Below, piece by piece: positions 1 through 21,266 of a stretch of 21,266 nt of DNA (positions are counted from its first letter, which is position 1; each line of letters begins with the position of its first letter). The notes under the pieces were generated by a model. That model saw only the letters and a program-made list of their open reading frames with translations. It had not been told where the DNA came from and made no database searches. The stretch spans positions 1-21,266 of the IMG/VR virus record IMGVR_UViG_3300025168_000814; one strand, written 5' to 3'. The translations under genes and the position numbers were made by a program. Source of the DNA: a virus.

Positions 1-178
1 CGTCCGCGACATACACCTCATTCGTGTACCGACACCTGCGAAGAACTCCGGGACAAGACCCGTCCACCGCGTCAATACGTACGGGTCCGTCTGCATTTCT
101 AAGCAGCATCCCCGGCGACCACTCGGCCCGACCGGCCGCGACCAGTTCCAGCCACCTCTGATCCAGTTCGGTACTCAT
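1..178 (-). CDS. Hypothetical protein, partial (C-terminus beyond left edge)
   Basis: An open frame on the minus strand starts at ATG 178-176 and stays open for 59 codons to the left edge. The ATG overlaps the TGA of the preceding gene in an ATGA, the junction used throughout this operon, and this is the main reason to believe the gene. The visible product begins MSTELDQRWLELVAAG and contains a mixed region (GMLLRNADGPVRIDAVDG, then a Cys/Arg stretch). I recognise no family. It is the last visible gene of the leftward operon that starts with the ERF annealing protein. Confidence 0.6.
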   Translation of the reverse strand, partial: MSTELDQRWLELVAAGRAEWSPGMLLRNADGPVRIDAVDGSCPGVLRRCRYTNEVYVAD

Positions 179-408
179 GACCGCCTCAGGATCGCAAAGA
201 TCAGCACGATCGGCACTAGGCCCACAACCCACGACATACCACAGCAAGACGTGGTCAGGATCACGGCTAGGCCGCTGTCCCCGGGTGGCATGTCCTGCAC
301 CACGGCGGCCGACCACGACAGCCACAGGGCCGCGACAGCCACGACCCACGCCGCCACCACTGCGATCTGTAGCCACCACACGCGGTGATTCCATTCGTTA
401 TTTCGCAT
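175..408 (-). CDS. Small membrane protein with two predicted transmembrane helices
   Basis: This 77-residue protein has a Trp-rich hydrophobic helix at about residues 11-32 and a second at about 47-74, and ends in the basic tail LRRS. The short polar loop between the helices (QDMPPGDSG) suggests a helical hairpin in the inner membrane. Size and topology resemble small holins, but no endolysin gene is nearby and the gene sits in a replication/recombination operon, so a lysis role is only one possibility. The start ATG at 408-406 lies 11 bases inside the upstream gene, and the stop TGA overlaps the next ATG. The function is not recognised. Confidence 0.65.
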   Translation of the reverse strand: MRNNEWNHRVWWLQIAVVAAWVVAVAALWLSWSAAVVQDMPPGDSGLAVILTTSCCGMSWVVGLVPIVLIFAILRRS

Positions 409-661
409 CGATCACCTCAGCCGTCTGTGTCGCCTCAGCCACGTCCACGAGCGCACGAGCGACCGCCGCCGGCCGACCACGGACCGCCCCCGCAATGATC
501 CGGCCGTCCGCCATAGTCAGACGGACCCACGCCGGGGCCGGGTGCCTGCAGTCGACCGACCGCGCGGATCCGGGTCCGCGCCACGTCGTACCCCAGCCGG
601 ACGCGGACAGCGCCTCAGAGATCCGGATCTCCCGGCTCGTTTCTGCTCTTGTGTCCATCAT
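398..661 (-). CDS. Hypothetical small protein
   Basis: This 87-residue protein starts at ATG 661-659, which overlaps the TGA of the HTH gene upstream (ATGA). A second Met follows at once. The central part WVRLTMADGRIIAGAVRGRPAAVARALVDVAEA could be a short beta-alpha unit: a beta strand, a turn at DGR, then an Ala-rich helix. There is no signal peptide or membrane segment. I recognise no family. The tight overlaps on both sides suggest translation coupled to the rest of the leftward operon. Confidence 0.6.
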   Translation of the reverse strand: MMDTRAETSREIRISEALSASGWGTTWRGPGSARSVDCRHPAPAWVRLTMADGRIIAGAVRGRPAAVARALVDVAEATQTAEVIDAK

Positions 662-1128
662 GCCTCTGCCCTCCAGTATCGGACCGTTCGAGCGGTCCGG
701 CCTACAATTTCAGCTACTTCCTCAGTGCGGAGCCCCGCCTGAGTCATCTCCTGCGCCAGTCGCCGCCTGAGCCGATCCGCAGCACGGCGGCACGCGGCCG
801 CCCACACGGACGGCTGAGGGTAGTCTCGGCGCTGAGGTGGGTAGTCCCACGCTCCCGCGTGCATGGCGTGACGCACGGCCGACCACTCAGCGCCGACCGC
901 CACCGCGGCCGCGTGCATCCTGTCCCCGGCGGCTATGCGGGCCGCTATGGCCCTCACGGGGACGCCGGACGCCTCAGCCGCCCTCACGGCGTCAGGCGAC
1001 ACCAAGCGGGCCCGCCAGCGCCATTCACGGACCTCAGGGACCGTCACCGGGTAGGCTCGCGCAATCCGCTGAGAGGTCCACCCCCGGCTGAGGGCCCTCG
1101 ATACGACTCGAGGCGGATCGCCGATCAT
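658..1128 (-). CDS. DNA-binding protein with several helix-turn-helix segments
   Basis: The frame is open as far as 1353, but that stretch overlaps the ERF gene and a small coupled gene. ATG 1128-1126 is the likely start because it overlaps the TGA of the small gene in an ATGA and opens directly on a helical domain. The 156-residue product has HTH-like segments at about residues 14-38 (SRGWTSQRIARAYPVTVPEVREW) and 128-153 (AGLRTEEVAEIVGRTARTVRYW), with a possible third at 56-92. The C-terminal segment resembles HTH units of transposase and Trp-repressor type. It is probably a nucleoid or regulatory DNA-binding protein of early phage function. The target is unknown. Confidence 0.65.
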   Translation of the reverse strand: MIGDPPRVVSRALSRGWTSQRIARAYPVTVPEVREWRWRARLVSPDAVRAAEASGVPVRAIAARIAAGDRMHAAAVAVGAEWSAVRHAMHAGAWDYPPQRRDYPQPSVWAAACRRAADRLRRRLAQEMTQAGLRTEEVAEIVGRTARTVRYWRAEA

Positions 1129-1256
1129 GGCAGACCCCAGAGGACCGCCACGCCCGCAAGTAGCAGTGCAGATCCGTGCCGGATCCCCCGGTCCGTCGGG
1201 CTCTCGCCCGGCATAGGCAGGAAGGCCAGATTCACCGCAGCAAACAGAGTGATCAC
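1125..1256 (-). CDS. 43-residue membrane peptide, coupled on both sides
   Basis: A very short gene fills the only gap in the leftward operon. GTG 1256-1254 overlaps the TGA of the ERF gene (GTGA). Its own TGA at 1127-1125 overlaps the ATG of the HTH gene (ATGA). The product has a hydrophobic N-terminus (MITLFAAVNLAFLPMPG), a charged middle (ESPTDRGIRHG) and a second hydrophobic run (SALLLAGVAVLWGLP), so it may span or line the membrane. The two exact 4-base overlaps are strong evidence that it is translated even though it is tiny. No family is recognised. Confidence 0.6.
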   Translation of the reverse strand: MITLFAAVNLAFLPMPGESPTDRGIRHGSALLLAGVAVLWGLP

Positions 1257-2023
1257 GAATCACCCCCGGCCGTGTCGGCGGACTCCGGCACCGGCTCCGC
1301 CTCCGGCACCGCCGCCCGGATCCGAGCCGCACCGCCGTCCCTGATCCAGCCAATGAGGCTGAGCCATTGCGGCTGAGTCATCTTGGACGGACGGGGCCGC
1401 CCGTTCCGCTCGCACCACGTGGCGACCTGGTCATAGCTTAGGGACTGCCTGGATAGCCCCGCCTGAAACACGCGCCACGCCGGGGCCTTTGTGTCTACCA
1501 TTTTAGGCGGGGCGGGCGGCGGAGCGGGGGCGGCCGTCTGCGCCGGAGGGCGGGGCCGCGAGTCGTCGCGCGCAGAGGTGGCCCCGTCGACGTCGTCACC
1601 GGCGGAGACCTGAGCGATGCTCATCAAACAATAGCGGCGGGCGTAGGAGATACAGACCCCGTCTTGCTGGGCCGGGTTGAGGCCCTTGCCTCCGGTCTGG
1701 TGCATCAGAACCCCCGATCGCCATTGCCCCGAGTTGTGGCTCAGGACGTACCGCACGCCGGCCGCGCCGCCGTCTGAGATCGGGTGCATCGTCACCGACA
1801 GGCCCGCCCTCTCGAACGGACCGCGGACCGCCGCGATCACGCTTTCGAGGTCGGCGTACTTGTTCCTGAGGTGAGGGTTTCGGGCATTCCTCTCCGCACT
1901 CCGCACGGCCCCCTGAGCCGCCGCGAGGGCCGCCGCGAGGGCATCCTGAGCGGCCGTCATTACGACGCCGCCCCCTAAGTCGATGACCGCCGGGGCCGCG
2001 TCCCGGTCCGCTGTCTCTGACAT
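1253..2023 (-). CDS. erf: ERF-superfamily single-strand DNA annealing protein (recombinase)
   Basis: The 256-residue product carries the ERF signature in its first 150 residues: a helix rich in Ala and Gln, then NPHLRNKYADLESVIAAV (50-66), a region equivalent to GLSVTMH...LSHNSGQWRSGVL, and the C-terminal core motif ISYARRYCLMSIAQV (125-139) followed by an acidic GDDVDG. ERF proteins anneal complementary single strands in phage recombination and in genome circularisation. A Pro/Ala-rich linker (155-173) joins the core to a C-terminal tail with its own small helical domain, the part that varies in this family. A good Shine-Dalgarno (AGGAGA) lies 6 bases before ATG 2023. It is the first gene of the leftward operon, just downstream of the promoter at 2045-2073. 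Confidence 0.88.
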   Translation of the reverse strand: MSETADRDAAPAVIDLGGGVVMTAAQDALAAALAAAQGAVRSAERNARNPHLRNKYADLESVIAAVRGPFERAGLSVTMHPISDGGAAGVRYVLSHNSGQWRSGVLMHQTGGKGLNPAQQDGVCISYARRYCLMSIAQVSAGDDVDGATSARDDSRPRPPAQTAAPAPPPAPPKMVDTKAPAWRVFQAGLSRQSLSYDQVATWCERNGRPRPSKMTQPQWLSLIGWIRDGGAARIRAAVPEAEPVPESADTAGGDS

Positions 2024-2044
2024 GCTGTCTCCTGGTGTGCGTCC

Positions 2045-2073
2045 ATGTTACCGCGTTGCGCGCTACCGTGCAA
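2045..2073 (-). promoter_or_regulatory. Sigma70-like promoter for the leftward ERF operon
   Basis: Read on the minus strand there is a -35 box TTGCAC (2073-2068), a 17-base spacer and a -10 box TAACAT (2050-2045). ATG 2023 of the ERF gene follows 21 bases beyond the -10 box, giving a short leader with the AGGAGA site. Box quality and spacing are good for a GC-rich genome. No experimental evidence is available from sequence alone. Confidence 0.5.
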
Positions 2074-2080
2074 GGCGTTA
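2049..2080. promoter_or_regulatory. Imperfect 32-bp inverted repeat, candidate operator
   Basis: The sequence is a dyad centred between 2064 and 2065 in which 12 of 16 base pairs match. The best arms are CGCGTTGCGC (2052-2061) and GTGCAAGGCG (2068-2077). It covers the -35 box and spacer of the leftward promoter and lies 23 bases before the start of a ribbon-helix-helix-like gene. This is the expected place for an operator that controls one or both divergent operons. The protein that binds it is inferred, not shown. Confidence 0.45.
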
Positions 2081-2090
2081 CAGGCTGTCG

Positions 2091-2105
2091 GGAGGTGCTG
2101 ACGTG
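2091..2105 (+). repeat. 15-bp ribosome-binding/start repeat, copy 1
   Basis: GGAGGTGCTGACGTG is identical at 2091-2105 and 3767-3781. In both places it supplies the GGAGG site and the GTG start of a rightward gene, here the RHH-like gene. In copy 2 its TGA is also the stop of the resolvase gene. The identity beyond the ribosome-binding core suggests either selection for equal initiation or a recent duplication of a start module. Confidence 0.6.
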
Positions 2106-2417
2106 CCGAAAAAGCAAGAGATCACGGTGTACGCGCCGGCGGCCGTCGTGGCGGCCGTCGATGCTCACCACCAGAGGTGTAGCGATCTGGGCCTAGCCGT
2201 CCGGCGGTCCGTGGCGGCTGAGGCGCTCTGTCGCCTAGCCCCCGTGGGCGTGTGTGCTGTGCCCCGCGTGGGCCCGGCTGAGCGTCTCCCGGTGTACGCC
2301 GCTCCGGACGTGCGGGGGCGTGTCTACGCCGTCGCCAGTGACTCAGGCGTGGGTGCGTCCGCGGCGGCGTGTGCGTTGATTTTAGCGGGGGCTGAGACCC
2401 TCAAGGAGGACAGGTGA
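2103..2417 (+). CDS. Small protein resembling two fused ribbon-helix-helix units; possible regulator
   Basis: The start is GTG 2103 with GGAGG ending 7 bases upstream. The frame is open further back but overlaps the divergent promoter region. The 104-residue product looks like an internal duplication. Residues 5-46 (EITVYAPAAVVAAVDAHH... to EALCRLA) and residues 60-97 (ERLPVYAAPDV... to CALILAGA) each read as one beta strand followed by two helices, the ribbon-helix-helix layout, and both contain VYA plus a nearby Pro. RHH proteins bind DNA as dimers, so a tandem copy could act as a single-chain dimer. It is the first gene of the rightward module and lies beside a dyad at 2049-2080. The function is inferred from fold pattern only. 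The TGA overlaps the next GTG. Confidence 0.6.
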   Translation: MPKKQEITVYAPAAVVAAVDAHHQRCSDLGLAVRRSVAAEALCRLAPVGVCAVPRVGPAERLPVYAAPDVRGRVYAVASDSGVGASAAACALILAGAETLKEDR

Positions 2418-3175
2418 GAGGACTAGCAATCATTGATCTAGAGACGGTGCCCCGTGGCGCCGTGTTCGGGGCGCCGGTGTCGGTGCCGGTCTCTGTGGCA
2501 ATGCCGGACCCGCCCGGGAGCTACAAAAAACCTGAGTCGCGCGAGAAGTGGCGCGAGACCCACGGGGAGGCCGCCCGCGTCACGGCGTGGGGCAAGTGGG
2601 CACTTGACCCGCTCCGGGCACAGATCGCCGGGGCGGCCCTGCTCCCGCTCGGTGATCCGGACGCTGAGATCGTTCGGATCCCCTATGTGCCCGGCGTCAG
2701 CATGATCGACGCGATCGGGGCGGCACTAGTCGAGCACGGGATCGACGGTCTCGCGTCGTGGGGGTCGTTTGACGGCACGATCCTGAGGGGTCAGTTGTCG
2801 ACAGAGCCTCACCGCAGCTACGGGCGATGCTTATCGGCGATCCGTGGGGATCAGATCGACGCCCGCCTCAGCCGCGTACTTGAGGTGTCCTCGCACACGG
2901 GCCGCCCGTGGCTCAAGCGGTGCGTCGATCTGTCGGTGTGGTCGGTGCGGCGTCTTCACGGGATGCGGGCCGGGTGGGGTCTTGACTCCACCGCGGAGGC
3001 ACACGGGATCGGGAGAAAGACCGGCGTGGCCAGCTCGGGAGTCCTTGAGGCGTGGGCGCTCGGCGACGCGGGCGGCATCGTAGACCGGGCGGCGCAAGAC
3101 GTGGCCCTGACACTCGCCATAGCGGACCGCGAGGGCATCCTGAGCCCCCTCGCGGAGTGGTGGAGCAAGTGCTAG
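2414..3175 (+). CDS. DEDD-family 3'-5' exonuclease-like protein (DnaQ/PolB-exonuclease fold)
   Basis: The start GTG 2414 overlaps the previous stop (GTGA) and is preceded by AAGGAGGA. The 253-residue product has the exonuclease motifs in order: IIDLET with Asp8 and Glu10 (Exo I), SWGSFDGTILRGQL with Asp120 (Exo II) and DRAAQDVALT with Asp229 (Exo III). Such enzymes remove nucleotides from 3' ends and serve in proofreading or recombination. No polymerase domain is attached, so it probably works alone or with a host polymerase. The residue four before Asp229, normally Tyr in the DEDDy group, is Arg225, and the position used by His in the DEDDh group is also not His, so the activity may be altered. 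It forms part of the rightward DNA-transaction operon. Confidence 0.72.
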   Translation: MRGLAIIDLETVPRGAVFGAPVSVPVSVAMPDPPGSYKKPESREKWRETHGEAARVTAWGKWALDPLRAQIAGAALLPLGDPDAEIVRIPYVPGVSMIDAIGAALVEHGIDGLASWGSFDGTILRGQLSTEPHRSYGRCLSAIRGDQIDARLSRVLEVSSHTGRPWLKRCVDLSVWSVRRLHGMRAGWGLDSTAEAHGIGRKTGVASSGVLEAWALGDAGGIVDRAAQDVALTLAIADREGILSPLAEWWSKC

Positions 3176-3777
3176 CCCCGCGACTTGCGATCGGTGTCGA
3201 TCCGGGCCCGGACAAGGGCGGGATCGTCGTCTATGACGCGGCTAACCGGGAGATCGCTAACTCAGAGCAGATCGGTAACCCGGCCCGCGGCTATGCGTGT
3301 GTGTGGCCGGACGCTCACCTGAGCCGGATCCGCGACGTGTTCGCACGGCTCTACCGGGCGTTCCCGGGTGAGGTGCCCGGCGCGGCACGTTTGCCTGTCG
3401 TTATCGGGATCGAGAGGTTCCGATCCCAAGGTGTGATCAACGCGGATATCATCCGGTCGATCGAGACATACGGCCGGATCCGTGAGATTGCCCACGATCT
3501 AGAGGGCCGCCGGCTGTCGGCCGGTCTCGCGGTGACGATCGATCCGTTGTACCGAGCGGACGTTCTGAGGCACCTTGACGCCCTTGGAGCAAAGGGCCGG
3601 GATCGTGTCGTGCGGGAGCGCATGATCACGGAGCACGGCGGCACCCGAGCGGCGGCGACAGGACGAAAGGCCGCCCCGGGGCCTCTGTACGGGTGCGCGT
3701 CGCACGCCTGGCAAGCGCTAGCCGTGGCATACGTCGCGGCGGATCGTGCGGGCATTCTAGGCCCACGGAGGTGCTGA
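3169..3777 (+). CDS. RuvC-like Holliday junction resolvase / RNase H-fold nuclease
   Basis: The product begins LAPRLAIGVDPGPDKGGIVVYD, the typical first strand of RuvC-type nucleases, with Asp11. Glu82 in VVIGIERFRSQG follows at the expected distance. The C-terminal helix SHAWQALAVAYVAADR matches the place of the last catalytic pair. Phage RuvC-like enzymes resolve branched DNA before packaging. The usual HxxD reads H179-A-W-Q182 here, so the last acidic ligand is missing unless a neighbour replaces it. GTG 3169 overlaps the previous gene and is chosen for coupling; GTG 3160 or 3157 are alternatives because no Shine-Dalgarno is well placed. The length of about 202 residues is normal. It lies between the exonuclease and a coiled-coil protein. 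Confidence 0.7.
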   Translation: MLAPRLAIGVDPGPDKGGIVVYDAANREIANSEQIGNPARGYACVWPDAHLSRIRDVFARLYRAFPGEVPGAARLPVVIGIERFRSQGVINADIIRSIETYGRIREIAHDLEGRRLSAGLAVTIDPLYRADVLRHLDALGAKGRDRVVRERMITEHGGTRAAATGRKAAPGPLYGCASHAWQALAVAYVAADRAGILGPRRC

Positions 3778-3781
3778 CGTG
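3767..3781 (+). repeat. 15-bp ribosome-binding/start repeat, copy 2
   Basis: This is the second identical copy of the start module at 2091-2105. Here it contains the end of the resolvase gene (TGA 3775-3777) and the start GTG of the coiled-coil protein at 3779. Confidence 0.6.
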
Positions 3782-4300
3782 GACAGCTTGCAAAAGAGGT
3801 GCCTCAGGTACCGAGCGGAGCGGGACGCAGCACGGGCTGAGGCCGCGGCGCTCCGTGTCCAGGTGGAGTCTTGCCATCTCGAGCGGGAGCGACGCGGGGC
3901 TGAGGCGTGGGCGACAGCCGGCGGGGCGGACGCCGTGCGGGCGGCCCGTGCGCTCCGTGTGCAGGTGCAGGACGTGACCCGGCTCGCAGAGGTTGCGCGG
4001 CGGGCGGGCGGATCGGATCCGTGGTCGGAGAGGATCCGTGGGCCCGTGGTAGAGCGCTTCTCAGCGGGTGGCGTGGCCCGTGGTGTGCCCGCTGAGGCGT
4101 GGGTCGGGGTCGCGCCGGGTGAGGGCCCGGCGAAGCCGTGGCGGGCGTCCCTGTGGCTACAGGGGCGCGACGGTCCGACCGTGCTGGCCTCCGGCCGCGT
4201 GATCGGTGGACGGCTCGAGCACGGAGAGATCCGGACCCACGGCACGGCGGACGCCCTCGCGGCGCTGTCGCGCTGGGTAGGGGGCCTCTATGCCGGCTGA
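3779..4300 (+). CDS. Hypothetical protein with N-terminal coiled coil
   Basis: The 173-residue product starts at GTG 3779, one base after the resolvase stop, with GGAGG ending 7 bases upstream. Residues 1-75 are a highly charged Arg/Ala/Glu helix (MDSLQKRCLRYRAERDAARAEAAALRVQV and a second run ALRVQVQDVTRLAEVARRAG), likely a coiled coil. The unit ALRVQV occurs twice. The C-terminal half (EAWVGVAPGEG, WRASLWLQGRDG, VLASGRVIGGRLEHGEI) looks like a small beta domain. No family is recognised. Position suggests an accessory factor for the nucleases or the methyltransferase. The end overlaps the methyltransferase start by 11 bases. Confidence 0.65.
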   Translation: MDSLQKRCLRYRAERDAARAEAAALRVQVESCHLERERRGAEAWATAGGADAVRAARALRVQVQDVTRLAEVARRAGGSDPWSERIRGPVVERFSAGGVARGVPAEAWVGVAPGEGPAKPWRASLWLQGRDGPTVLASGRVIGGRLEHGEIRTHGTADALAALSRWVGGLYAG

Positions 4301-5543
4301 GGTGCCGCTATTCGTCGAGCTGTGCGCCGGGACCGCGGCGTTGAGTCTGCGTCTACAGCGTGCCGGAGCACGGCCTCCGGTGTCGCGCATGGGAGCCAAG
4401 ACCGGGTATGCGGACGCGATCCTGAGCCGGCTAGGTCTCCAGCCGGGACAACGTGCCGCCCGCTATTTGTGGGCGGACCCGGATCCGGGCGTGCGCTTGC
4501 TTCTGCACGCTTACACGCGGCCCGACGTGGCGCGGGAGGCCGCGGCTATCATCCGGGCGTGGGGCGCGACAGACGAGGCCCCGCGCGACCTCTGGGAACG
4601 CCTCAAGGCTGAGGGGCCCGTTCGGGGTCCGGACGCGCGCGAGGTGGCGCGGTGGACGACGGTTCAGGGATGGAGCGGGCTTGTGTCCGGCACTGGCTAC
4701 AGTGGCCCCGGACACGGGCGGGATCGCTGGGGTGATCTACCGCCAGCGACGATCGCGCGCCGCCTTGGCGCCCTCCCCGATTGCGCCGCGGCGGTGCTCG
4801 ATAGCGGCGACATAGACCCGCGCGAGGTGGCGCGGTGGCTGCGGATCGTGGCTTCTAACCGTCTGATCAACCTAGACCCGCGGACGTGGAAAAACACCGG
4901 GATCGGCGGATCGACGCACGGCGGAGCGGAGTTCTGTACCGACTCTGAGGCCGTGGCGGCACGCGCGGAGGCCGTGCCCGTGTGTCCGGCGGCGGTGCTT
5001 GGGTCGGCGGACATTGACCCGCGCGAGGTGGCGCGGGAGTACCTGCTTCACCGCTGGAGCTTCTCAGAGCGAGGGCCGGCGGCAGGGTACGGCGGCCCGG
5101 GGTGCGAGGTCCGGACCACTCGCGCGACATGGACGACTGAGGACCGGGATCGATCGCTCGGGTGCGAGCGGTCCGCTGAGCGTCTGGAGTCCTTGCCGGC
5201 GTTCGTGGGCGGCCCGGTGCCGGACGGTCCGGACTTGCCTGAGGGTTCGATCATGTACATGGATCCCCCGTACTACCAGACGACCGGCTACGCGGACGAC
5301 ATACCGCGCCCTGAGGGCCGCCCGTTCGGCTGGGTGGAGGACACGGCGATCGCGTGGGCGGACGCCGGGGCCGTCGTGTGCATCTCGGAGGCCGTGCCGA
5401 TCCCCGGTCTCGCGGACCGCCCGGGGTGGTTCGTGCATGAGGTCACGAACGAACGAAAGGGCCAGAAGCGCACTTTCTCCAAGCAAAAGCGCGAATTCCT
5501 AACCATGAACCGGCCGCCCCGCGGTCAGGTCTCACTCTTCTGA
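4290..5543 (+). CDS. DNA adenine methyltransferase, D12 class (Dam-like)
   Basis: The order of motifs is that of alpha-class N6-adenine methyltransferases: an AdoMet-binding motif FVELCAGTAALS at residues 8-19, a second strand ARYLWADPDPGV at about 65, a long variable target-recognition region, and the catalytic DPPY at 325-328 (IMYMDPPYYQTTGYADD), then an EFLTMN end. At 417 residues it is longer than Dam or M.DpnII (about 270-285). The extra length lies in the middle, where a DPREVARW-type block recurs at residues 115, 176 and 243. GATC is the natural guess for the target, given the class and the GATC-rich window, but the target is not shown. The start ATG 4290 lies inside the previous gene. 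Confidence 0.82.
   Translation: MPAEVPLFVELCAGTAALSLRLQRAGARPPVSRMGAKTGYADAILSRLGLQPGQRAARYLWADPDPGVRLLLHAYTRPDVAREAAAIIRAWGATDEAPRDLWERLKAEGPVRGPDAREVARWTTVQGWSGLVSGTGYSGPGHGRDRWGDLPPATIARRLGALPDCAAAVLDSGDIDPREVARWLRIVASNRLINLDPRTWKNTGIGGSTHGGAEFCTDSEAVAARAEAVPVCPAAVLGSADIDPREVAREYLLHRWSFSERGPAAGYGGPGCEVRTTRATWTTEDRDRSLGCERSAERLESLPAFVGGPVPDGPDLPEGSIMYMDPPYYQTTGYADDIPRPEGRPFGWVEDTAIAWADAGAVVCISEAVPIPGLADRPGWFVHEVTNERKGQKRTFSKQKREFLTMNRPPRGQVSLF
4627..5042 (+). repeat. Three-copy repeated block within methyltransferase target-recognition region
   Basis: The coding sequence for (D)(P/A)REVAR(W/E) recurs near 4632, 4815 and 5016, each time with the core CGCGCGAGGTGGCGCGG. The last two copies share a longer unit: a run resembling VP-x-C-x-AAVLxS-x-DIDPREVAR precedes the core in both. 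Spacing is 61 and 67 residues. Confidence 0.6.
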
Positions 5544-5550
5544 GGACAGC

Positions 5551-6663
5551 ATGCAAGTAACGATCGATCGGGAACTATTCGCACGCGCCGCAAAGATCGC
5601 GGCCGCTGTCGCGCCTCGGAGGCCGGCTGAGCCCGTCCACGGGGCCGCGGTGCTCGATGCGGGCGACCACGGGCTGAGGATCACGGCCACGGACGGGGAG
5701 ACGGCGATCTCAGTCGTTGTGGCGGCCGTTGTCGAGACGGCGGGATCTGTGGCGGCACCTGCGCACCGGCTAGCCGCGGTCCTCGCGGACGCCCCAGCGG
5801 CGTTTGTCGATGTCGCCGGGAACTCGAAAGCGCTCAAGGTGGAGGCCGGCGGGCGGTCGACTACCCGCGTGCCCGTGTGGGCCTCCACAGAGGCCGTCCC
5901 GGCCCCGTCTGACGTTCAGGCTACCTTGACCCTCGCGGGACCGGCGGCGGCCCTCAGGGGCTATCTGGACGCGCTAGGAGGGCTACCCGTGGGATCCCCT
6001 GAGCGGTGGGGCCTGAATGGCGTGGCGCTACACGTCCGGGACGGCGTGGCGATCGGAGTGGCTACAGATGGACACCGGGCGGCCAAGATCGGATCCGGGG
6101 AGGCGATCACCGTTGCCGGGGATGCGCCCCAAGACGCCCTTCTGCCTATCGAGGGGCTGAGGGTCCTGTCGCGCGGTCTCGCCCTCGCGTCCGGGGTGGC
6201 GACTGTCGAGATCGGAGAGGCCGCCCTGAGGGCCGTGTGGGACGGCGGGTATGCGTGGGCGGCGACACTTGCCGGGACCCCTCCTGACGTGGTGTCGATC
6301 GTGCCCACGTCCCACACGCTATCGATCCGGGTCGCGCCGTCCGAGCTGGCGGGGGCCGTGACGCGGGCGGGGCGAGTGGCGGCGGCCGTGACCCTGACGC
6401 CGGGGGCTGAGTCCCTCACGGTGTCGGCGGACGGGGCGGACGGGGCCCACACGGAGACCATAGACGCAGAGATCGAGGGGGCGCCGGAGCCGATCACGCT
6501 GTCGCGCGAATACGTGATCGCGGCGCTGGGGTGCGTCGGCGGTGACGTGGCTGAGGTCCGGTCCTCGGGTGGGCTGTCGCCAGTGACTTTGACCTCCGGC
6601 GACACGATCCCCAGCATGGACGGGCCTGATCCACTGGTGATCATCATGCCGATCCGGCGCTAG
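5551..6663 (+). CDS. dnaN: DNA polymerase III beta subunit-like sliding clamp
   Basis: This 370-residue protein has the length of bacterial DnaN and its signatures: LRITATDGETAI (42-53) in the first domain, GVALHVRDGVAIGVATDGHRAAK (157-179) at the end of domain two, and the C-terminal IIMPIRR (364-370), equivalent to the MPMRL end that lines the clamp pocket. A sliding clamp forms a ring around DNA and tethers polymerase and other partners. No polymerase gene is seen here, so it may recruit the host replicase or a phage polymerase encoded elsewhere. ATG 5551 has GAGGA upstream and starts 7 bases after the methyltransferase stop. The TAG at 6661-6663 overlaps the stop of the convergent tail gene. 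It is last in the rightward operon. Confidence 0.88.
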   Translation: MQVTIDRELFARAAKIAAAVAPRRPAEPVHGAAVLDAGDHGLRITATDGETAISVVVAAVVETAGSVAAPAHRLAAVLADAPAAFVDVAGNSKALKVEAGGRSTTRVPVWASTEAVPAPSDVQATLTLAGPAAALRGYLDALGGLPVGSPERWGLNGVALHVRDGVAIGVATDGHRAAKIGSGEAITVAGDAPQDALLPIEGLRVLSRGLALASGVATVEIGEAALRAVWDGGYAWAATLAGTPPDVVSIVPTSHTLSIRVAPSELAGAVTRAGRVAAAVTLTPGAESLTVSADGADGAHTETIDAEIEGAPEPITLSREYVIAALGCVGGDVAEVRSSGGLSPVTLTSGDTIPSMDGPDPLVIIMPIRR

Positions 6664-9133: not shown

Positions 9134-9142
9134 CCGTGCCCC

Positions 9143-10885: not shown

Positions 10886-10903
10886 GGCGGCCCCCTGGGT
10901 CCG

Positions 10904-11669: not shown

Positions 11670-11712
11670 GTGCTGTCCTCCGGATTGGAGAAACAGCGTA
11701 ACGCGCCCCGCG

Positions 11713-12690
11713 CTAATTCGTCGCGGGGTCGCTTGCCTCATTCGATACGGCGATCGTTAGGGGGCTGTCGGAGGCGTCCCCGAATACTTTAAATGTGACC
11801 GTCTCGATCACTTCGTTTGTGCTCGCGGAGTGCTCGGGTACCACGCTTTCAACAATCGCATTTCGGAGCGTGATCGTCAGGGCGTCCGTATTCGTGCCGG
11901 AGTACGCGATCACAAGGTCCCCCTGAGTGCCCGCCCTGAGGCCGGCGTACAAAGATCCGTCCTCGCGGCGGAATCGCGCGGACAGTGTGACCATATGCGG
12001 CCCCGTCTGGATCGGCTCTTGTGTCGACTTGTCGCCGAATGCGGGGGCCCGGCGGGTCTGACGGTCCCCCGTGATCGTGTAGTCAAGGAGAAACGCCTTA
12101 CGGTCGGCTGAGTTCCAGGTAAATCCGGTCATCTGCGACGCGAGGGCCTTTCGCGTGATCGGCGTATAGGTGGGCACAACTAAAGATTCTTCGCCCGCTC
12201 CAGACTTTTTCCAGATCGCGTCTAGCCCGACCATCATTAGGCCGTCACCGTCGGTGCCGTTCGCGTGGCGAATCTCGAACCCCGTCACCCGGCCGCCGGC
12301 CGCCGTCTCAGAGACCGCTTCACCACGGTTGATCGTGACGCTGAGACCGAGTGTGGGCGCATCCCCTAGCGTGTAGGTGTGCACGGTCGGATTGCTACCC
12401 GCGGAGGCGACGGCGCCGAGTCCGTGCAAGAGCAGGAAGTGCATCCCGCCCGCCTGGTAGTGCATGTGATGCTCTACCCGGCCGGCAAAGATGATCTGTT
12501 CCCGCGTGTGTTCCTCGACAAACAAACCAGCCGCGCCCCGTCTGCCCATAGTCGGCACGTCTGCCGACGGTCGCGATTCAATAGGCGTGAACGACAGCGG
12601 AGGAAGCCACGCGGCGGGGGCGGTGTAACTTCCCCAACTCCCGGAATCGCTAGCGTAGCCGAGGATCGATCCCTTGCTTAGTCGGGGCAT
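11713..12690 (-). CDS. Major tail tube protein
   Basis: This 325-residue protein precedes the chaperone and tape measure genes, as tail tube proteins do. It begins MPRLSKGSILGYASDSGSWGSYTAPAAWLPPLSFTPIESRP, an extended N-terminus, followed by GRVEHHMHYQAGGMHFLLLHGLGAV (about 70-94), a segment typical of tube proteins in which a helix packs against the beta sandwich. Alternating beta strands continue to VIETVTFKVFGDASDSPLTIAV. The protein polymerises into hexameric rings that form the tail tube. The length is above average for lambda-like tube proteins and may include an extra domain, perhaps surface-exposed. A 43-base gap follows before the chaperone start. Confidence 0.72.
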   Translation of the reverse strand: MPRLSKGSILGYASDSGSWGSYTAPAAWLPPLSFTPIESRPSADVPTMGRRGAAGLFVEEHTREQIIFAGRVEHHMHYQAGGMHFLLLHGLGAVASAGSNPTVHTYTLGDAPTLGLSVTINRGEAVSETAAGGRVTGFEIRHANGTDGDGLMMVGLDAIWKKSGAGEESLVVPTYTPITRKALASQMTGFTWNSADRKAFLLDYTITGDRQTRRAPAFGDKSTQEPIQTGPHMVTLSARFRREDGSLYAGLRAGTQGDLVIAYSGTNTDALTITLRNAIVESVVPEHSASTNEVIETVTFKVFGDASDSPLTIAVSNEASDPATN

Positions 12691-12693
12691 AGG

Positions 12694-13931: not shown

Positions 13932-13936
13932 GACGC

Positions 13937-13966
13937 ACCGTAGCGCGTCCCGGCTCGGACGGTCAA
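13937..13966 (-). promoter_or_regulatory. Promoter-like sequence that would give a nearly leaderless transcript
   Basis: On the minus strand a -35 box TTGACC (13966-13961), an 18-base spacer and a -10 box TACGGT (13942-13937) lie in the 50-base gap between the gp10-like and tail terminator genes. The terminator ATG begins 5 bases after the -10 box, so transcription would start at or within the start codon. No Shine-Dalgarno is visible before that ATG. TANNNT just upstream of a start codon is known for leaderless genes in several high-GC bacteria. This may still be chance. Confidence 0.35.
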
Positions 13967-13981
13967 GCCGGCCGCCGTCTA

Positions 13982-15123: not shown

Positions 15124-15137
15124 TCGGACCCCCTAGA

Positions 15138-15536
15138 TCACGCGGGTGGAAGCTTGCGAATACCGATCGTGAGGACGCCCTCTAGAGCGTCCGCCGTGCC
15201 GGTCTCGTCGATATCGATCAAGATCGAACCGCCCGCCGGGATCTGTGCATTCGCGGCCGACACCGTGATCGCGACCTTGTCATTCACGGCCAGGGCGGTA
15301 CCGCCCGTGGCGGCGGTCGTAAAGCCACCCATAGATGAACCGGCCGATCCGGCCTCTCCGTCCGTCGCCTTGAGATCGACGGCCCACTTGTTCGTGTCGT
15401 TAGCCGCCACGACGGCCCACGGCAGGAACACCGCGGAAACGACCTCGTAAGGGGACGAATCCGCCGGGACCGGAAGAAACCGATCGTCAGACGCCGTAAC
15501 GGCTGGGATGTAGTGGGTAAGATATGTGGTAATCAT
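15138..15536 (-). CDS. Putative capsid decoration / head protein
   Basis: This 132-residue, Ala/Gly/Thr-rich protein lies directly downstream of the major capsid gene, where many phages encode a decoration protein. It is predicted to be mostly beta: SSPYEVVSAVFLPWAVVAAN, TNKWAVDLKATDG, NDKVAITVSAANAQIPAGGSILIDIDETG, EGVLTIGIRKLPPA. There is no Cys and little basic charge. No specific family is recognised. No clear Shine-Dalgarno precedes ATG 15536. A protein of similar composition and size is encoded at 20776-21147, but I see no convincing sequence match. Confidence 0.55.
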   Translation of the reverse strand: MITTYLTHYIPAVTASDDRFLPVPADSSPYEVVSAVFLPWAVVAANDTNKWAVDLKATDGEAGSAGSSMGGFTTAATGGTALAVNDKVAITVSAANAQIPAGGSILIDIDETGTADALEGVLTIGIRKLPPA

Positions 15537-15552
15537 GGTTGATCCGTGCGTA

Positions 15553-17139
15553 TCAGGTGGATGAGGCGATATCGATCGCGTATGCGACCGGCTTCTCAGA
15601 GGACTGACACTCGAACGTCAGCCCCTCCCGATCCGTCGCTGTGATGTGGACCACGTGCTTCTTGGCTTCCACTTCCGTCTCAGTCCGTGCTTCACGGCGG
15701 ACGGGGCGGACAACGCGCGAGGTGTCGACCAGCACGAGACCCGTCTGAGTCTTTGTGCTGTTGTCGTAGATGCCTGCCGGGGTCATTTCGGCCGACATGA
15801 ACTCAGAGATCACCAGCGGAACACCCGCGACTGAGCCAACCTGACCCGTCAGGAGGGTAGCCTGAGGCCCCATCTTGTCCATGGTCAAGAAGTTGGAATC
15901 CACGAGGAAGTGGTAGATCAGGGCCTCAAGGCTAGTGATCGCCGCGAGGTTCCCGCGGCTGTAGCCCTTCGTCAGCCTGCCGTGGAGTTTGATAAAATCG
16001 GTGCTCACGTTGCCGTCGTCAAAATCGGCGGTTGAGCTGTCGTCAAGCGCGCGGTGTCGGAGGCCGAGGAACATTTTCCGGTGATCAGCGGCGGATCCGG
16101 GAGTCCAGCGGCCGCCTGCACTCCAACTATCGATCCCGGTGTCGCCGTGGCTTGCTGCGTTGTCGCCATTCAGGATCGCGTCCTCGCGGGCGTCCAGCAG
16201 TGCCTGAGCGAGTGCGGCCCGCATCGTCGGAGCAAACGCGACGATCGAATCCTCAGAGGCGTCCCGGTTTGCCATCGTCGTAACGGCTAGCGTGTGGACG
16301 TTGTAGCTGATCTCAGACGTTCCGATCTGGCTTGCCTTGAGGTTCGCGGGGTCAAGGTCGCCAGCCGCCGGCGTGCCCACTGAGTAGGGCTGAAGGCCGG
16401 AAGTAAGGAAGGGATTCGTCATCCCGTCCGTAGCGGCGACAGTGCGAAACAAACCGGCCACGGGGCGCGCGAGCTGCATGTAGACAAGCAAGCGGGTACC
16501 CTGAACGTCGGGTTGCCACTCGGCGCCCTCTCCGGCGTTGTCGGCAAACATACGCGAGAAGTGCGGGAGGCTGCTCAGGTGACGCATGAACCGGCGGCGG
16601 GTCTTGCCACCGTTCGCACGACGACAGCCGGCCGCGCGCATGGCGCTCACCAGTGCCAGATCGGCCGCGAGGGTCTGTGCTCGGTGCTGACCTTCGGAGC
16701 GGGGCGCGGGGTCCGTAAGGTATCCCTCTTGCCAGTCGCCGTGGGCATCGTAGCCGCCGACCATACGGATCGGGGTGGAGTCTCCAACGCGCAAATACGG
16801 CGCGTCAGTGGACACGGTGCCGGTCCCAATGTCCCGACAGCGGCCCTCGAGGTCATCCACGCCGGGCGGGAGATAGGCGCGCACGGCGTCCGCCTCATCA
16901 CCAGCCGGGATCGCGCGCTGCTTAGCCTCGATCGCTGCGGACTTTGCGGCGTTAGCTAGGCCCTTGATCTCAGCGATCGCGCGGTCCATGCCGTCGCGGG
17001 ACGCCTCACCGCGTGCGATCGCGGCTTTGATCGTTCCGACCTCGGAGATCACGGCGTCTGTGAGGGCCTCCGCGGAGCGGCCGGCGGCCGTCCTGAGCCC
17101 TTCTGTGTAGCTACTTGGATCGACAATATCGCCAGGCAT
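15553..17139 (-). CDS. Major capsid protein (HK97 fold) with long N-terminal scaffold-like domain
   Basis: The 528-residue product starts at ATG 17139 with AGGAG upstream, one base after the protease stop. The open frame extends 24 codons further, into the protease gene. Residues 1-80 are helical and charged (TEGLRTAAGRSAEALTDAVISEVGTIKAAIARGE..., IAEIKGLANAAKSAAIEAKQRA), like the delta domain that acts as a fused scaffold and is removed by the protease. The rest has HK97-type features: SEISYNVHTLAVTTMANRDASEDSIVAF, ALAQALLDAREDAILNGDN, GYSRGNLAAITSLEALIYHFL, GVPLVISEFMSAEM. A 'TRVVRPV'-like segment near the C-terminus (DTSRVVRPVRREARTE) fits the loop near the end of the fold. Confidence 0.85.
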   Translation of the reverse strand: MPGDIVDPSSYTEGLRTAAGRSAEALTDAVISEVGTIKAAIARGEASRDGMDRAIAEIKGLANAAKSAAIEAKQRAIPAGDEADAVRAYLPPGVDDLEGRCRDIGTGTVSTDAPYLRVGDSTPIRMVGGYDAHGDWQEGYLTDPAPRSEGQHRAQTLAADLALVSAMRAAGCRRANGGKTRRRFMRHLSSLPHFSRMFADNAGEGAEWQPDVQGTRLLVYMQLARPVAGLFRTVAATDGMTNPFLTSGLQPYSVGTPAAGDLDPANLKASQIGTSEISYNVHTLAVTTMANRDASEDSIVAFAPTMRAALAQALLDAREDAILNGDNAASHGDTGIDSWSAGGRWTPGSAADHRKMFLGLRHRALDDSSTADFDDGNVSTDFIKLHGRLTKGYSRGNLAAITSLEALIYHFLVDSNFLTMDKMGPQATLLTGQVGSVAGVPLVISEFMSAEMTPAGIYDNSTKTQTGLVLVDTSRVVRPVRREARTETEVEAKKHVVHITATDREGLTFECQSSEKPVAYAIDIASST

Positions 17140-17140
17140 C

Positions 17141-18370
17141 TCAGCTCCTATTCTTTGCGTGGAATCCCCACGCGCTCTCATGGATTGACGGTACGGGCCG
17201 GGACGCCTCAAGGACGCTCAGCGCACGAAGCAAAACCGGGTTCAATGCCCCGATCAATTCACTGTCGCCCCTCTCGATCAAATCGATCACGGCGTCTCTG
17301 ACAGTGGCGGTCAAGTCGGAAGCGTCCCCCGGAATCCCGAGCCGACCGCCGACGGCTCGGACAGCTAGCGCGCCGGAGTCGGCCGGGATTGGAGTCTCAG
17401 AGATCTCACGGAGGACCGCGTATCTGTGGACCTGAGGCATGTACTCGAACTCAGCGCCAAACCGCTTGAGTTTGATCGGCTTGTCCAGGTACAGGCGGTG
17501 GTCCTTGGGTAGTTTGTCCGCGCGGACGACCTCACCCGGGATCCAGCGGACCGAGACTGGCATACGGATCCCCGACTCGCGGAGGCGGCGGGCCTCTAGA
17601 GCGTGCGGGGCGTCGTCGGTGCGGTGCCGGTACCATGCACGAAGGGCCCGCGCGTCCGTGTCGATCTGCGTCCTGTGAGCGACGCCGATCACGCGGTTAG
17701 GGTCGTGCGACTGGAGGACCGGACCCCCGGATCCAAGCATCCGACCAAAGGCGCGAGTGCGCCACGTGTCGACCTCGATCATATCGCCGTCGGTGGCCAT
17801 TCGCTCCGTGGACGCGATCACCTCAATCTCTGAGGCGTCACCGTCGGTGCGCTGGGCGTCGTCGGCTATGGTTACGCAATCCGACGCGGCAAATGTGCCG
17901 TCATCGAGCCTGAGGAATGGGGATCGGTGTTGCATGGCTAATGCATACCGTAAGGACGCCCCGGTATCAAGCGACCCGACAGCGGCGCGCAATCCGGACG
18001 CCGTGCGGCGCTTGCGTGCAATGCGATCCCGGATCGTCTTTTTCATATGCGCAACGCCCCGATCACCGACTACAAACCACTTGATCTGAGCGACCACTCC
18101 GGCGATCCGAAAGTCGCCCCGGTGCCGGGCGGCCCACGCCTCCCGCTTACGCACGGCGGCGATCTGGGTGTCGGTGTCAGGGACTCCGCGATTCGCGACC
18201 ACGGGCCTCAGGCGGCGGTATTGCGCATTGCCTTCTATGTTCCCGCCTAGCCGCCAGATCTCAGGGTGCTCGGTTCGGACCATCTCCGCGAAATCCGAAT
18301 CAAACGTCCTGAATCGGCTATTCCTCAGGGATATCTTACGGTCGTCTCCCTTTTTCGGGAAGTCCGTCAC
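17141..18370 (-). CDS. Prohead protease (S78-like) with N-terminal accessory domain
   Basis: GTG 18370 is the likely start because it overlaps the portal stop as GTGA; the frame stays open to 18391. The 409-residue product is two-part. Residues about 9-115 (DDRKISLRNSRFRTFDSDFAEM..., REAWAARHRGDFRIAGVVAQIKWFVVGDRG) form an unassigned domain. Residues about 138-409 carry the protease: SLRYALAMQHRSPFLRLDD, VLQSHDPNRVIG with His222, and GIRMPVSVRWIPGE with Ser273, the expected His and Ser of the HK97-type assembly protease. This enzyme trims the capsid N-terminus and is lost from the mature head. The usual protease is about 200-250 residues, so the N-terminal part is extra. It lies between portal and capsid genes. 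Confidence 0.75.
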   Translation of the reverse strand: MTDFPKKGDDRKISLRNSRFRTFDSDFAEMVRTEHPEIWRLGGNIEGNAQYRRLRPVVANRGVPDTDTQIAAVRKREAWAARHRGDFRIAGVVAQIKWFVVGDRGVAHMKKTIRDRIARKRRTASGLRAAVGSLDTGASLRYALAMQHRSPFLRLDDGTFAASDCVTIADDAQRTDGDASEIEVIASTERMATDGDMIEVDTWRTRAFGRMLGSGGPVLQSHDPNRVIGVAHRTQIDTDARALRAWYRHRTDDAPHALEARRLRESGIRMPVSVRWIPGEVVRADKLPKDHRLYLDKPIKLKRFGAEFEYMPQVHRYAVLREISETPIPADSGALAVRAVGGRLGIPGDASDLTATVRDAVIDLIERGDSELIGALNPVLLRALSVLEASRPVPSIHESAWGFHAKNRS

Positions 18371-19767
18371 CGGCACCGGGAAAGGACCCACGCCGGACGG
18401 AACGCCCCGATCAACGTCGGATCGTCCGCGAGGGCCGCCGCCGCCGCCTGATCCCGCACGATATCCGCGGCCGCTGCCGGATCCTCTCCCGCGTCCGCGA
18501 GGGCTCCGGCTAGGATCACGGCCTCCCGGTCTAGGTCGACAGTCCCGCTCCCGTGTCGGGTCGCAGATGCCCTCAGGACGGCCGCTAGCCGCTCCCGTGG
18601 TTCGTCAGCCGTTGACGGCTCCCGGGGGCGCCCCGCGGGCCCCTGAGTGTCTCCCGTGGCCAGTCTCGCCACGGACGGCGGGAGACCGGCCGCCTGTAGT
18701 GCGTCCGACGCCGGGATCCCGAGCTGGACGAATACCTGAGCCGTCCTCGCCATATCCGCGTAAGTGCTCCGCAGTGCAGGCACGGCGGCGAAATCGTGGA
18801 CGAGCGGCACGCCGTAGACTTGGCTGAGGAATCCATTCATTCCGGACGTCGGATCAATGCCTCCGCAGAGGTTGATCGCCCGTAGCCAGAACCCGCGCGA
18901 TTCCTCGCGGGCGGTGCCGTAGTTGGCCCCGGGGAGGCCCGCCATAGTCGGAGGCACCCCCATAGTCGCAAGGGCCGCCGACTGTGCCCGCTGTACGACG
19001 CTGGAAAACTCCTGATCCCGGGCGCTCAGTTCCATAGGCGTGATCTTCATCTCTTGCGGGAGGACGTACAGATCGATCCCCTCCTCGCGCCGTGCCTGCC
19101 AATCGGACTCGATATCCTCCCTCAGTTCGGGTCCGAGCGTCACGGAGTCTGAGGCCGGCGTCAGTAGAGCTGAGACCTGTCCACGCTTAGCGGCCCGCGC
19201 GGAGTGCCGATCGACGTTGTACTCAGTGTTAAGCACGCTCTGCAGGGACTTAACCGCCGAGGTGCCGCGGTGGTTCGGGCCGGAAGTGAACGTGAGGCCC
19301 CTATGCCACGCAACCTCAGCGGCTATTTCGTCGCCGTCGTCGGTTTTGTAACCGTATGCGGTGCCGCCCCTGACGCATCCCCGCGACGGGTGAAGGAACC
19401 GCCGATCCAGGGCCCAGACCTCCTCAGTCAAGTGGTAGGACACCCACCACATAAGGCGATCGCGGCTGTCGGCACCGGTGAAGACCTCACCCGTATCGGC
19501 CCGCCTGAGGGGCAGTCCTGACAGATTGACGGCCGCCCGCTCCACCCCGACACGGAGCCAGGGGAAGTACCCAGGGGCCGCCATTGCTAGCCCGAAATCA
19601 TACACGGGCCGATCGGGTGAGACCGCCCCGAACCGCTCAAGCAAGGACCACCGTGTAGGCCCGGCCGACAGCATAGCGGGCGACGGCGGGCGCTCCGTGC
19701 GTGCACGGTCCGCGATAGCCGCCGGGCGGCGGGGGCGGATAGCCCTGAGGGCGGATAGCCAGCTCAC
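18367..19767 (-). CDS. Phage portal protein (HK97 type)
   Basis: This 466-residue protein starts at GTG 19767, which overlaps the previous stop (GTGA). The best signature is ALATMGVPPTMAGLPGANYGTAREESRGFW (about 266-295), the 'GVPP-x-x-x-G-x-x-x-x-NY' loop and helix found in HK97-family portals. Also typical are PWLRVGVERAAVNLSGLPLRR (about 69-89) and the helical region SARDQEFSSVVQRAQSAAL. Twelve copies form the ring through which DNA passes during packaging and ejection. The C-terminus is Ala-rich and may contact packaged DNA or the connector. It stands upstream of protease and capsid in the usual order. The terminase is presumably beyond the right edge. Confidence 0.85.
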   Translation of the reverse strand: MSWLSALRAIRPRRPAAIADRARTERPPSPAMLSAGPTRWSLLERFGAVSPDRPVYDFGLAMAAPGYFPWLRVGVERAAVNLSGLPLRRADTGEVFTGADSRDRLMWWVSYHLTEEVWALDRRFLHPSRGCVRGGTAYGYKTDDGDEIAAEVAWHRGLTFTSGPNHRGTSAVKSLQSVLNTEYNVDRHSARAAKRGQVSALLTPASDSVTLGPELREDIESDWQARREEGIDLYVLPQEMKITPMELSARDQEFSSVVQRAQSAALATMGVPPTMAGLPGANYGTAREESRGFWLRAINLCGGIDPTSGMNGFLSQVYGVPLVHDFAAVPALRSTYADMARTAQVFVQLGIPASDALQAAGLPPSVARLATGDTQGPAGRPREPSTADEPRERLAAVLRASATRHGSGTVDLDREAVILAGALADAGEDPAAAADIVRDQAAAAALADDPTLIGAFRPAWVLSRCR

Positions 19768-20033: not shown

Positions 20034-20776
20034 CTGAGCCCCCTGTACTGAATCCGGTAGCCGTGAACAGTGAACTGAGTCTGAGAGCTAGTGCGGATCG
20101 TGGATAGTTCAAATTTCGCGGCCGAGAGTCGCGGATTGATCGCCGACTCCCCGGAGCCGATATCTACCCCGGTGGCGTCGTCCATGTCGGCCGGGGCCGG
20201 CGGGGCCGGGTAAGCTCCCAGCCACGCGCCACGATCCCACCACCTCAGGCCCTTGCTTGTGACCGCAAAGGTCATGACGGCGTCTGTGGAGTCCGCGAGG
20301 GCGGTGCCGTAGTCGCTGAATTTGTTGCCGGAAGTGAATACGCCGAATTCCCACTGTCCAGGGGCGGACTGGTAACGAGGGCCGCACGCGGCTAGCCGGG
20401 TGTTTGAGGCGTAGATCGCGCCGCTCAGGCGGGCGTTGTTCCCGGGCGTATTGTCCGCCGTATATCGAACGTCAATCAATAGTTCCCCGCCGTCCGCGAT
20501 CTGTGGAAAGTCCGACAGATCGATCGACACCGTCGGGGACGTGCCGCTAGCATACGCCCCCGTCGAAGTCTGCACGAACTTGAGGCCCGTCGATCCGTCC
20601 GGCCCTAGAGTGGAACACTTCGCGCCGTTGCTCACAGTGTGGGTGACGCCGCCGGCTACAAAATCCCCGTTTCCTGTCCAGTCCGCAGCGTCCGCGGCCG
20701 ACAGATCGACAGCGGCGATCAATACCCACGGGGCGCCGTCGGTTCCTCGCAGCAATCGGCGCGACATGAGAGCCAT
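20030..20776 (-). CDS. Beta-sandwich virion protein (LamG/lectin-like pattern)
   Basis: The likely start is ATG 20776, which overlaps the previous stop by one base (TGATG). GTG 20791 is an alternative. The 248-residue product is almost all beta and Gly/Ser/Thr-rich: DWTGNGDFVAGGVTHTVSNG, TGLKFVQTSTGAY, DGGELLIDVRYTADNTPGNNARLSGAIYAS, GQWEFGVFTSG, AVMTFAVTSKGLRWWDRGAWLGAYP, KFELSTIRTSSQTQFTVHGYRIQYRGLR. This resembles concanavalin/LamG-like jelly rolls, which in phages often serve as receptor-binding or decoration proteins. It lies upstream of the portal, an unusual place for a host-binding protein. The fold is inferred from pattern; no binding residues can be named. Confidence 0.5.
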   Translation of the reverse strand: MALMSRRLLRGTDGAPWVLIAAVDLSAADAADWTGNGDFVAGGVTHTVSNGAKCSTLGPDGSTGLKFVQTSTGAYASGTSPTVSIDLSDFPQIADGGELLIDVRYTADNTPGNNARLSGAIYASNTRLAACGPRYQSAPGQWEFGVFTSGNKFSDYGTALADSTDAVMTFAVTSKGLRWWDRGAWLGAYPAPPAPADMDDATGVDIGSGESAINPRLSAAKFELSTIRTSSQTQFTVHGYRIQYRGLR

Positions 20777-21147
20777 CAGTTGCCCCGCCACGTGATCCCG
20801 GGGGTAAGGTTACAGGTGCCCGTGTTCGTCTTTGCAACGACGTACAGGGTGCCCGCCGTGCCCCACGACGGAGCCGACCACGGAACGTCGATCGCCTCAG
20901 CAAATCCGCCGTCTGTCGCTGTCGTTTTCCCGGTCACAATCGTAACCGTCGACTCAGCCGACACCGCGTGGTCCCCGGCTGCGTCCGCCGCGAGGTAATA
21001 CGTGATCGCCGCGGCGCTACTGGCGATCGTGTCGATCTTGCCGAAGATAGCGCCTAACTGGATCTTGTTCGGCACTTGAGGCACCGCGATCACGGCGTAG
21101 GACGTGCTGAGCGCTGTAGCGGCGCCCTCGCTCAGACTCTGTCGCAC
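20776..21147 (-). CDS. Hypothetical structural protein
   Basis: GTG 21147 is the chosen start. It has AGGGGG seven bases upstream and comes after the stop of a probable upstream frame at 21173. A longer start at 21198 would overlap that frame. The 123-residue product is beta-rich and Ala/Thr-rich: LSEGAATALSTSYAVIAVPQVPNKIQLGAIFGKI, ITYYLAADAAGDHAVSAESTVTIVTGKT, APSWGTAGTLYVVAKTNTGTCNLTPGITWRGN. It may be a small virion or fibre-associated protein working with the beta-sandwich protein downstream. Its TGA overlaps the next ATG. No family is recognised. Confidence 0.5.
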   Translation of the reverse strand: MRQSLSEGAATALSTSYAVIAVPQVPNKIQLGAIFGKIDTIASSAAAITYYLAADAAGDHAVSAESTVTIVTGKTTATDGGFAEAIDVPWSAPSWGTAGTLYVVAKTNTGTCNLTPGITWRGN

Positions 21148-21172
21148 CAGAACACCCCCTAGGACTGCAACC

Positions 21173-21266
21173 CTACCGCCCGCGCCCCACGGAGGCAACC
21201 CGGACGGCGTAGCCCGACAGCCACCCGTCGCGACGCCAGGACCCGAGCGAGGACCGCACGCCGGCC
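21173..21266 (-). CDS. Partial reading frame entering from right edge (C-terminal 30 residues)
   Basis: One minus-strand frame entering from the right edge stays open to TAG 21175-21173 and ends SLGSWRRDGWLSGYAVRVASVGRGR. Twenty-eight of its 30 codons end in G or C, clearly protein-like for this genome. The two other frames are also open here but look less natural. It ends 25 bases before the next start, a reasonable spacing. The product is unknown; in this gene order it could be the end of a terminase or of another structural gene. Confidence 0.4.
   Translation of the reverse strand, partial: AGVRSSLGSWRRDGWLSGYAVRVASVGRGR

Follow-up and report, generated by a model that had tools for sequence, protein, structure and literature searches.

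The 21,266-base stretch of IMG/VR virus record IMGVR_UViG_3300025168_000814 analysed here (the window; linear, 66% guanine plus cytosine, GC) is, judging from its predicted portal, HK97-like capsid, tail tube, beta clamp and ERF recombinase, a fragment of a tailed phage. Across its genes there is a preference for exact DNA words, foremost GATC and CTCAG/CTGAG, that is genome-wide and maintained, the favoured words being conserved between the window and a relative with 94% identity. The explanation we tentatively favour is selection that acts on short words of double-stranded DNA throughout the genome, is still maintained and outweighs codon preference, probably as a result of restriction or modification pressure.

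GATC occurs 311 times in the window (14.6/kb), which is 4.69 times the base-composition expectation and makes it the most enriched palindromic 4-mer present. The nine-fold excess reported in a preliminary description of this DNA is true of the richest stretch only, and although an excess also remains against a maximal-order Markov expectation, it is just 1.30-fold, a conservative figure because ATC and GAT are themselves inflated. A synonymous null was built by shuffling codons among the 27 reading frames, keeping every protein and total codon usage; under this null 162 sites were expected in the coding set and 314 were seen (1.93-fold, z = 17.6), the count being above 311 because sites in overlapping frames count twice. 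The excess appeared in each codon frame (seen/expected: GAT-C 78/40, nGA-TCn 31/8, nnG-ATC 205/114), and all 27 genes were above expectation for GATC, as against none of 27 for CATC.

The sites are spread and not clustered, as indicated by near-Poisson counts in 600-base segments (mean 8.7, variance 9.6) and by random placement of 311 sites, where in 76% of trials some stretch of 600 bases held 17 or more. A recount agreed with the 17 GATC previously noted within 3181-3780, and gave 10 in place of about 11 for 15541-16200. The idea of a local cluster at 3181-3780 marking a packaging (pac) site or origin was dropped; that densest stretch is the chance maximum of a genome-wide property, and no candidate pac site or origin showed a cluster of GATC.

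Codon choice indicates that the pressure falls on the DNA word. In the resolvase candidate (Table 1), aspartate (Asp) is encoded by GAT in 5 of 5 cases before C and by GAC in six of seven other cases, just as the preliminary description had it, and the dependence extends to all genes: GAT is used for 78 of 129 Asp codons before C and 65 of 311 before other bases (odds ratio, OR, 5.8; p = 4e-15), with no such effect of a following C in any other NNY codon. The isoleucine (Ile) side provides stronger evidence. Among curated genes, fourfold-degenerate wobble positions are G or C in a ratio of 147:7 before ATC, compared with 239:201 before A-codons that do not begin with AT (OR 17.7); the effect is restricted to ATC and absent for ATG and ATT (17:15 before ATG), and it favours G over A and T as well (147:17 before ATC, 239:127 before the non-AT A-codons). 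Conversely, Ile following a C-ending codon is ATT or ATA in 27 of 47 cases. Taken together, the Asp-side and Ile-side rules require all four letters of GATC, which places the pressure on the DNA word, and a protein or codon-pair cause was ruled out because every frame and both strands show the enrichment. The earlier inference of selection on the word rather than on the protein or codon identity thus stands, on the evidence of three frames, both codon sides, 27 of 27 genes and the slow synonymous turnover described below.

An unbiased screen of all 4- to 6-mers against the synonymous shuffle showed that GATC, which had been presented as the standout word, is indeed enriched but is surpassed by one that had been missed. 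CTCAG/CTGAG is present at 163 sites in the window (7.7/kb, 3.7 times base composition), and in coding sequence 161 were seen where the shuffle predicts 38 (4.2-fold, z = 21), making it the strongest single word. Its excess occurs in every frame that permits it freely, while its single-base neighbours are mostly neutral or depleted (ATCAG 0.8, CGCAG 0.36, CTAAG 0.7), and in curated genes codons of the form xCN end in T in 62 of 110 cases before GAG and in 56 of 806 before other G codons (OR 17.3). A third favoured word, CGACAG, emerged once GATC and CTCAG had been masked (59 seen, 15.8 expected, about 3.5-fold). Several other words are avoided, including CATC (88 seen/204 expected by shuffle), GCAG (104/220), CCAGG (24/71) and GCAGC (24/77), as well as CTGC, the complement of GCAG, and CGAAG; their depletion in both orientations and beyond codon usage is the pattern by which restriction-site avoidance is recognized. 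There was no composite GATC-CTCAG motif and no fixed spacing between the two beyond coding periodicity, and together they contain 13% of window adenines. As a separate observation, CTG makes up just 30% of leucine codons, an unusual share for DNA with 66% GC.

Comparison with GC-rich bacteria and phages, for which controls and window were both called by a simple longest open reading frame (ORF) rule, separated generic from specific signals. GATC in these genomes is usually 1.2-1.5 times the synonymous null and often the top 4-mer. The preliminary description had held that most phages avoid GATC or leave it neutral, a view not borne out by the GC-rich phages examined, several of which enrich it (D29 1.43, Sansa 1.48, RcapMu 1.50, R6L 1.42), though across further phages the range was 0.8-1.5 and in Rhodobacter phage RcTitan the value was 0.16. 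The preference for Asp GAT before C is likewise shared, with OR 1.2-3.5 in most of the bacteria and phages examined (the maximum, 3.5, in Gordonia), so that the next-base dependence holds but its supposed specificity does not. Several GATC-biased genomes, e.g. Phaeobacter, Panacagrimonas and Paraburkholderia, have no match to a D12 methylase. Both earlier clues, the Asp argument and the base-composition excess, are therefore largely generic and weak alone, and GATC enrichment with an Asp codon context is by itself no evidence of Dam biology in GC-rich genomes. The specific signals are G before ATC and T before GAG. In the longest-ORF set the wobble G:C ratio before ATC was 134:7 in the window (OR 16.7; 147:7 in the curated genes, since the gene-calling rule differs), compared with OR 0.6-2.8 in controls, and the OR for T in xCN before GAG was also 16.7, compared with 5.5 in phiC31, the next highest, and at most 2.7 in the others. 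Two control phages have word biases of their own: RcTitan (bases 1-18000) shows extreme avoidance of CGAG (1 seen/101 expected), GAGC (0/78) and CCTC (0/43) and has no CTCAG, and Erythrobacter phage R6L (1-21266) has 1 CTCAG where 19 are expected, GTAC at 2/23 and GATC at 1.4-fold. ORF67 of R6L, described as Dam-type in its paper, carries NPPY and by eye seems nearer to a phage N-6-adenine methyltransferase of another class.

The favoured words also turn over slowly. The one close relative that was recovered, L001, is an IMG/VR contig of 7,617 bases that is 94% identical to the window along its whole length; its sample number suggests a marine source. Synonymous wobble positions differed between the two at 4.8% within GATC, 5.8% within CTCAG and 3.3% within CGACAG, compared with 12.6% elsewhere and 24-31% within avoided words; differences were counted in both directions, which makes the Fisher p-values somewhat optimistic and leaves the ratios unaffected. 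This slow turnover fits selection, and equally a mutational equilibrium.

In the explanation we favour, the avoided words (CATC, GCAG, CCAGG and related words) would be recognition words of restriction-like defences in the host community, and the favoured words (GATC, CTCAG/CTGAG and CGACAG) would be tolerated or useful, being modified or otherwise not attacked. The modifier might be a host enzyme or the phage methylase candidate at 4290-5543. GATC would start from the bias common to GC-rich genomes (1.2-1.5-fold), and its further rise would come partly as a by-product, through the avoidance of CATC and words like it, and partly from a positive preference. Several points weigh against this explanation. 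Under restriction pressure sites are normally lost, with no gain of others, and slow turnover of favoured words would equally be expected from an equilibrium of context-dependent mutation or biased repair. No enzyme reading GATC or CTCAG was identified, and the methylase candidate has no Pfam or NCBIfam match. A search for the host by word signature brought up none close among about 1,360 bacterial genomes of six phyla, and searches for relatives by clamp, portal, methylase, capsid and tube yielded L001 alone.

It is rather less likely, though a serious alternative, that GATC is not specially selected and that its abundance is the ordinary GC-rich bias multiplied by the effect of avoiding CATC/GATG and similar words. 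Under the same null GC-rich bacteria and phages reach 1.2-1.5-fold, with an Asp OR as high as 3.5, and some of these genomes have no D12 match. An exponential-family sampler of synonymous sequences was fitted so as to match the counts seen for 15 avoided 4-mers, and avoidance in this model lifted GATC from 162 to 211 (1.3-fold), so that 1.4 x 1.3, or about 1.8, comes near the observed 1.93. By these modelled values avoidance would account for about one third of the GATC excess and of the CTCAG excess, with 211 of 314 GATC and 78 of 161 CTCAG predicted, and CTCAG is thus left unexplained. Conversely, a model fitted on GATC and CTCAG alone missed the avoidances (CTGC 189 predicted, 104 seen), and since neither model alone reproduces the counts, both an avoidance term and a positive term are needed. 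The by-product account is further opposed by the OR of 16.7 for G:C before ATC, far from the 0.6-2.8 of all controls, and by the preference for G over A and T in the same position, which avoidance of C does not predict. A process free of selection, context-dependent mutation or biased repair of the kind proposed for HIP1 in cyanobacteria, would make words uniform over genes and frames, as they are here, and would lead one to expect slow favoured and fast avoided words; we nevertheless consider it very improbable, as it would need exact 4- and 5-base contexts whose neighbours are neutral or depleted (CTCAG at 4.2-fold beside the values given above) and changes of the C-to-G type (CATC versus GATC).

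Phages often follow host composition and sampling in GTDB is partial, which leaves some room for a host lineage outside the sample that favours GATC and CTCAG and whose word usage the phage has adopted. We surveyed Pseudomonadota (with extra Alphaproteobacteria), Actinomycetota, Planctomycetota, Verrucomicrobiota, Chloroflexota and Cyanobacteriota for CTCAG followed by GATC within 30 bases, an arrangement found at 2.26/kb in the window and 2.76/kb in L001. The survey maximum was 0.86/kb, in Planctomycetota, followed by Cyanobacteriota (0.84), Actinomycetota (0.66), Chloroflexota (0.58), Pseudomonadota (0.51), and Alphaproteobacteria and Verrucomicrobiota (0.40 each); 4-mer Markov profiles correlated with that of the window at 0.25 or less for genome samples and at 0.87 for L001. 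As the signature is absent from the surveyed genomes, host mimicry is unlikely. The model of the preliminary description appears more doubtful still: GATC would be methylated by a Dam-type enzyme of the phage, with the dense sites having a role in protection, timing, packaging or repair. In its favour are a DPPY-bearing methyltransferase candidate and a GATC that is both favoured and conserved. The 417-residue product, in which inspection suggests motif I-like and motif IV (DPPY) segments (Table 1), gave no match to PF02086 (Dam/MethyltransfD12) at E<=10 in its own record or at E<=1 in a library scan, and hhalign against a small D12 set gave a weak probability of 47%. A PHROG 56 match at the DPPY motif had E=0.24, a single-sequence AlphaFold run gave a pLDDT (predicted local distance difference test) of 34 and no usable model, and a search of genome contigs returned no match. 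Assignment to the Dam class is therefore unproven, and while the gene is a methyltransferase candidate by its motifs, a GATC specificity is not supported. The Dam-type model is further weakened by the GATC bias of genomes with no D12 match, by its silence on the stronger CTCAG preference and by the even spread of GATC, with no cluster at a candidate pac site or origin. In the candidate, motif I precedes a motif X-like RMGAKTGYAD, an order that would be unusual for the D12 class, if real.

Known systems offer partial precedents. BseMII/BspCNI recognize CTCAG and Dam/MboI GATC, while CCWGG is recognized by EcoRII/Dcm and GCWGC by enzymes of the ApeKI type. Avoidance of words of the CCWGG and GCWGC types is ordinary (PMC6286503), and it is the enrichment of GATC and CTCAG that is odd. 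The closest earlier example of methylation-related words being enriched is HIP1, with the other highly iterated palindromes of cyanobacteria, which is a genome-wide word with a GATC core tied to orphan methyltransferases (Elhai, 2015; PMC4390886). The window resembles it in having a short GATC-core word far above composition genome-wide (GATC 4.7-fold, and CTCAG 3.7-fold, in nearly all genes). The density discussed for HIP1 is about 1 per kb, and cyanobacteria mostly under-represent GATC outside it (PMC4390886), whereas the density of GATC here is about 15 times that, the enriched word is GATC with no GCGATCGC extension, the non-palindromic CTCAG is stronger, and the signature belongs to a phage. 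Identity with HIP1 was rejected, as the octamer GCGATCGC is not the enriched unit: it lies outside the top 20 GATC-centred octamers of the window, and CGATCG, at 2.16-fold, behaves like other GATC hexamers.

Depletion of CCAGG, GCAGC and CATC at the DNA level on both strands recalls restriction-avoiding phages, a study of which found GATC to be under-represented in every one of the 46 with matching enzymes encoded by their hosts (Rusinov, 2018; PMC6286503), but the standout feature here is the enrichment of GATC and CTCAG. Literature searches returned nothing on CTCAG enrichment in phages. By our own computation, the Streptomyces phages phiC31 and phiBT1 come closest in this respect, with CTCAG the top 5-mer of phiC31 (3.0-fold) and CTGC and CCAG avoided, yet phiC31 has GATC at 0.9-fold, favours CTTC and CGAAG, which are avoided in the window, and has a profile correlation of 0.32. 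phiC31 (bases 1-21000) also strongly avoids CTGGC and CCTCG. GC-rich bacteria and phages in general share the 1.2-1.5-fold GATC and the favouring of Asp GAT before C, but the magnitude in the window and its Ile-side preference are far above all controls.

Word bias in phages usually means the loss of restriction sites, whereas the phage studied here, which resembles none of the surveyed genomes, has strongly gained two restriction-type words and keeps them in spite of codon preference. If the favoured words are modified, the virus would be under selection for methylation targets; if they are not, it would serve as a clean example for telling mutation, by-products of avoidance and selection apart. 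Conceivably, though this is unlikely, evolution has loaded the phage with modification targets up to the limit that its proteins set, which when methylated would form a dense coat against many nucleases or a mark of self; were this true, selection would be for modification sites and not against restriction sites.

The predicted genes with assignable functions are collected in Table 1, and the beta-clamp homologue among them indicates a bacterial host. Window bases 1-8000 had no DNA match among 50,697 INPHARED phage records, the portal and methylase candidate had no protein-level relative among INPHARED phages, and the clamp, capsid and ERF proteins had weak or domain-level matches only. Two minus-strand frames overlap within 658-2023, those of the ERF recombinase and of a helix-turn-helix protein predicted at 658-1353, the start of which is uncertain.

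Table 1. Predicted features of the window, with positions, strand and supporting matches.
Feature	Position	Strand	Evidence
ERF-family single-strand annealing recombinase	1253..2023	-	PF04404 1.9e-15; phrog_155 1.4e-27
RuvC-like resolvase candidate	3169..3777	+	weak PHROG 1770 Holliday junction resolvase match, E=0.11
Putative adenine methyltransferase	4290..5543	+	ELCAGTAAL motif I-like; YMDPPYY motif IV
DNA polymerase III beta-clamp homologue	5551..6663	+	PF00712 9.8e-12; phrog_947 1e-34
Tail tube protein	11713..12690	-	PF18906 2.9e-7
Major capsid protein (HK97-like)	15553..17127	-	phrog_10 2.7e-8; PF05065 3.5e-5, slightly below its cut-off
Portal protein	18367..19767	-	PF04860 5.3e-14

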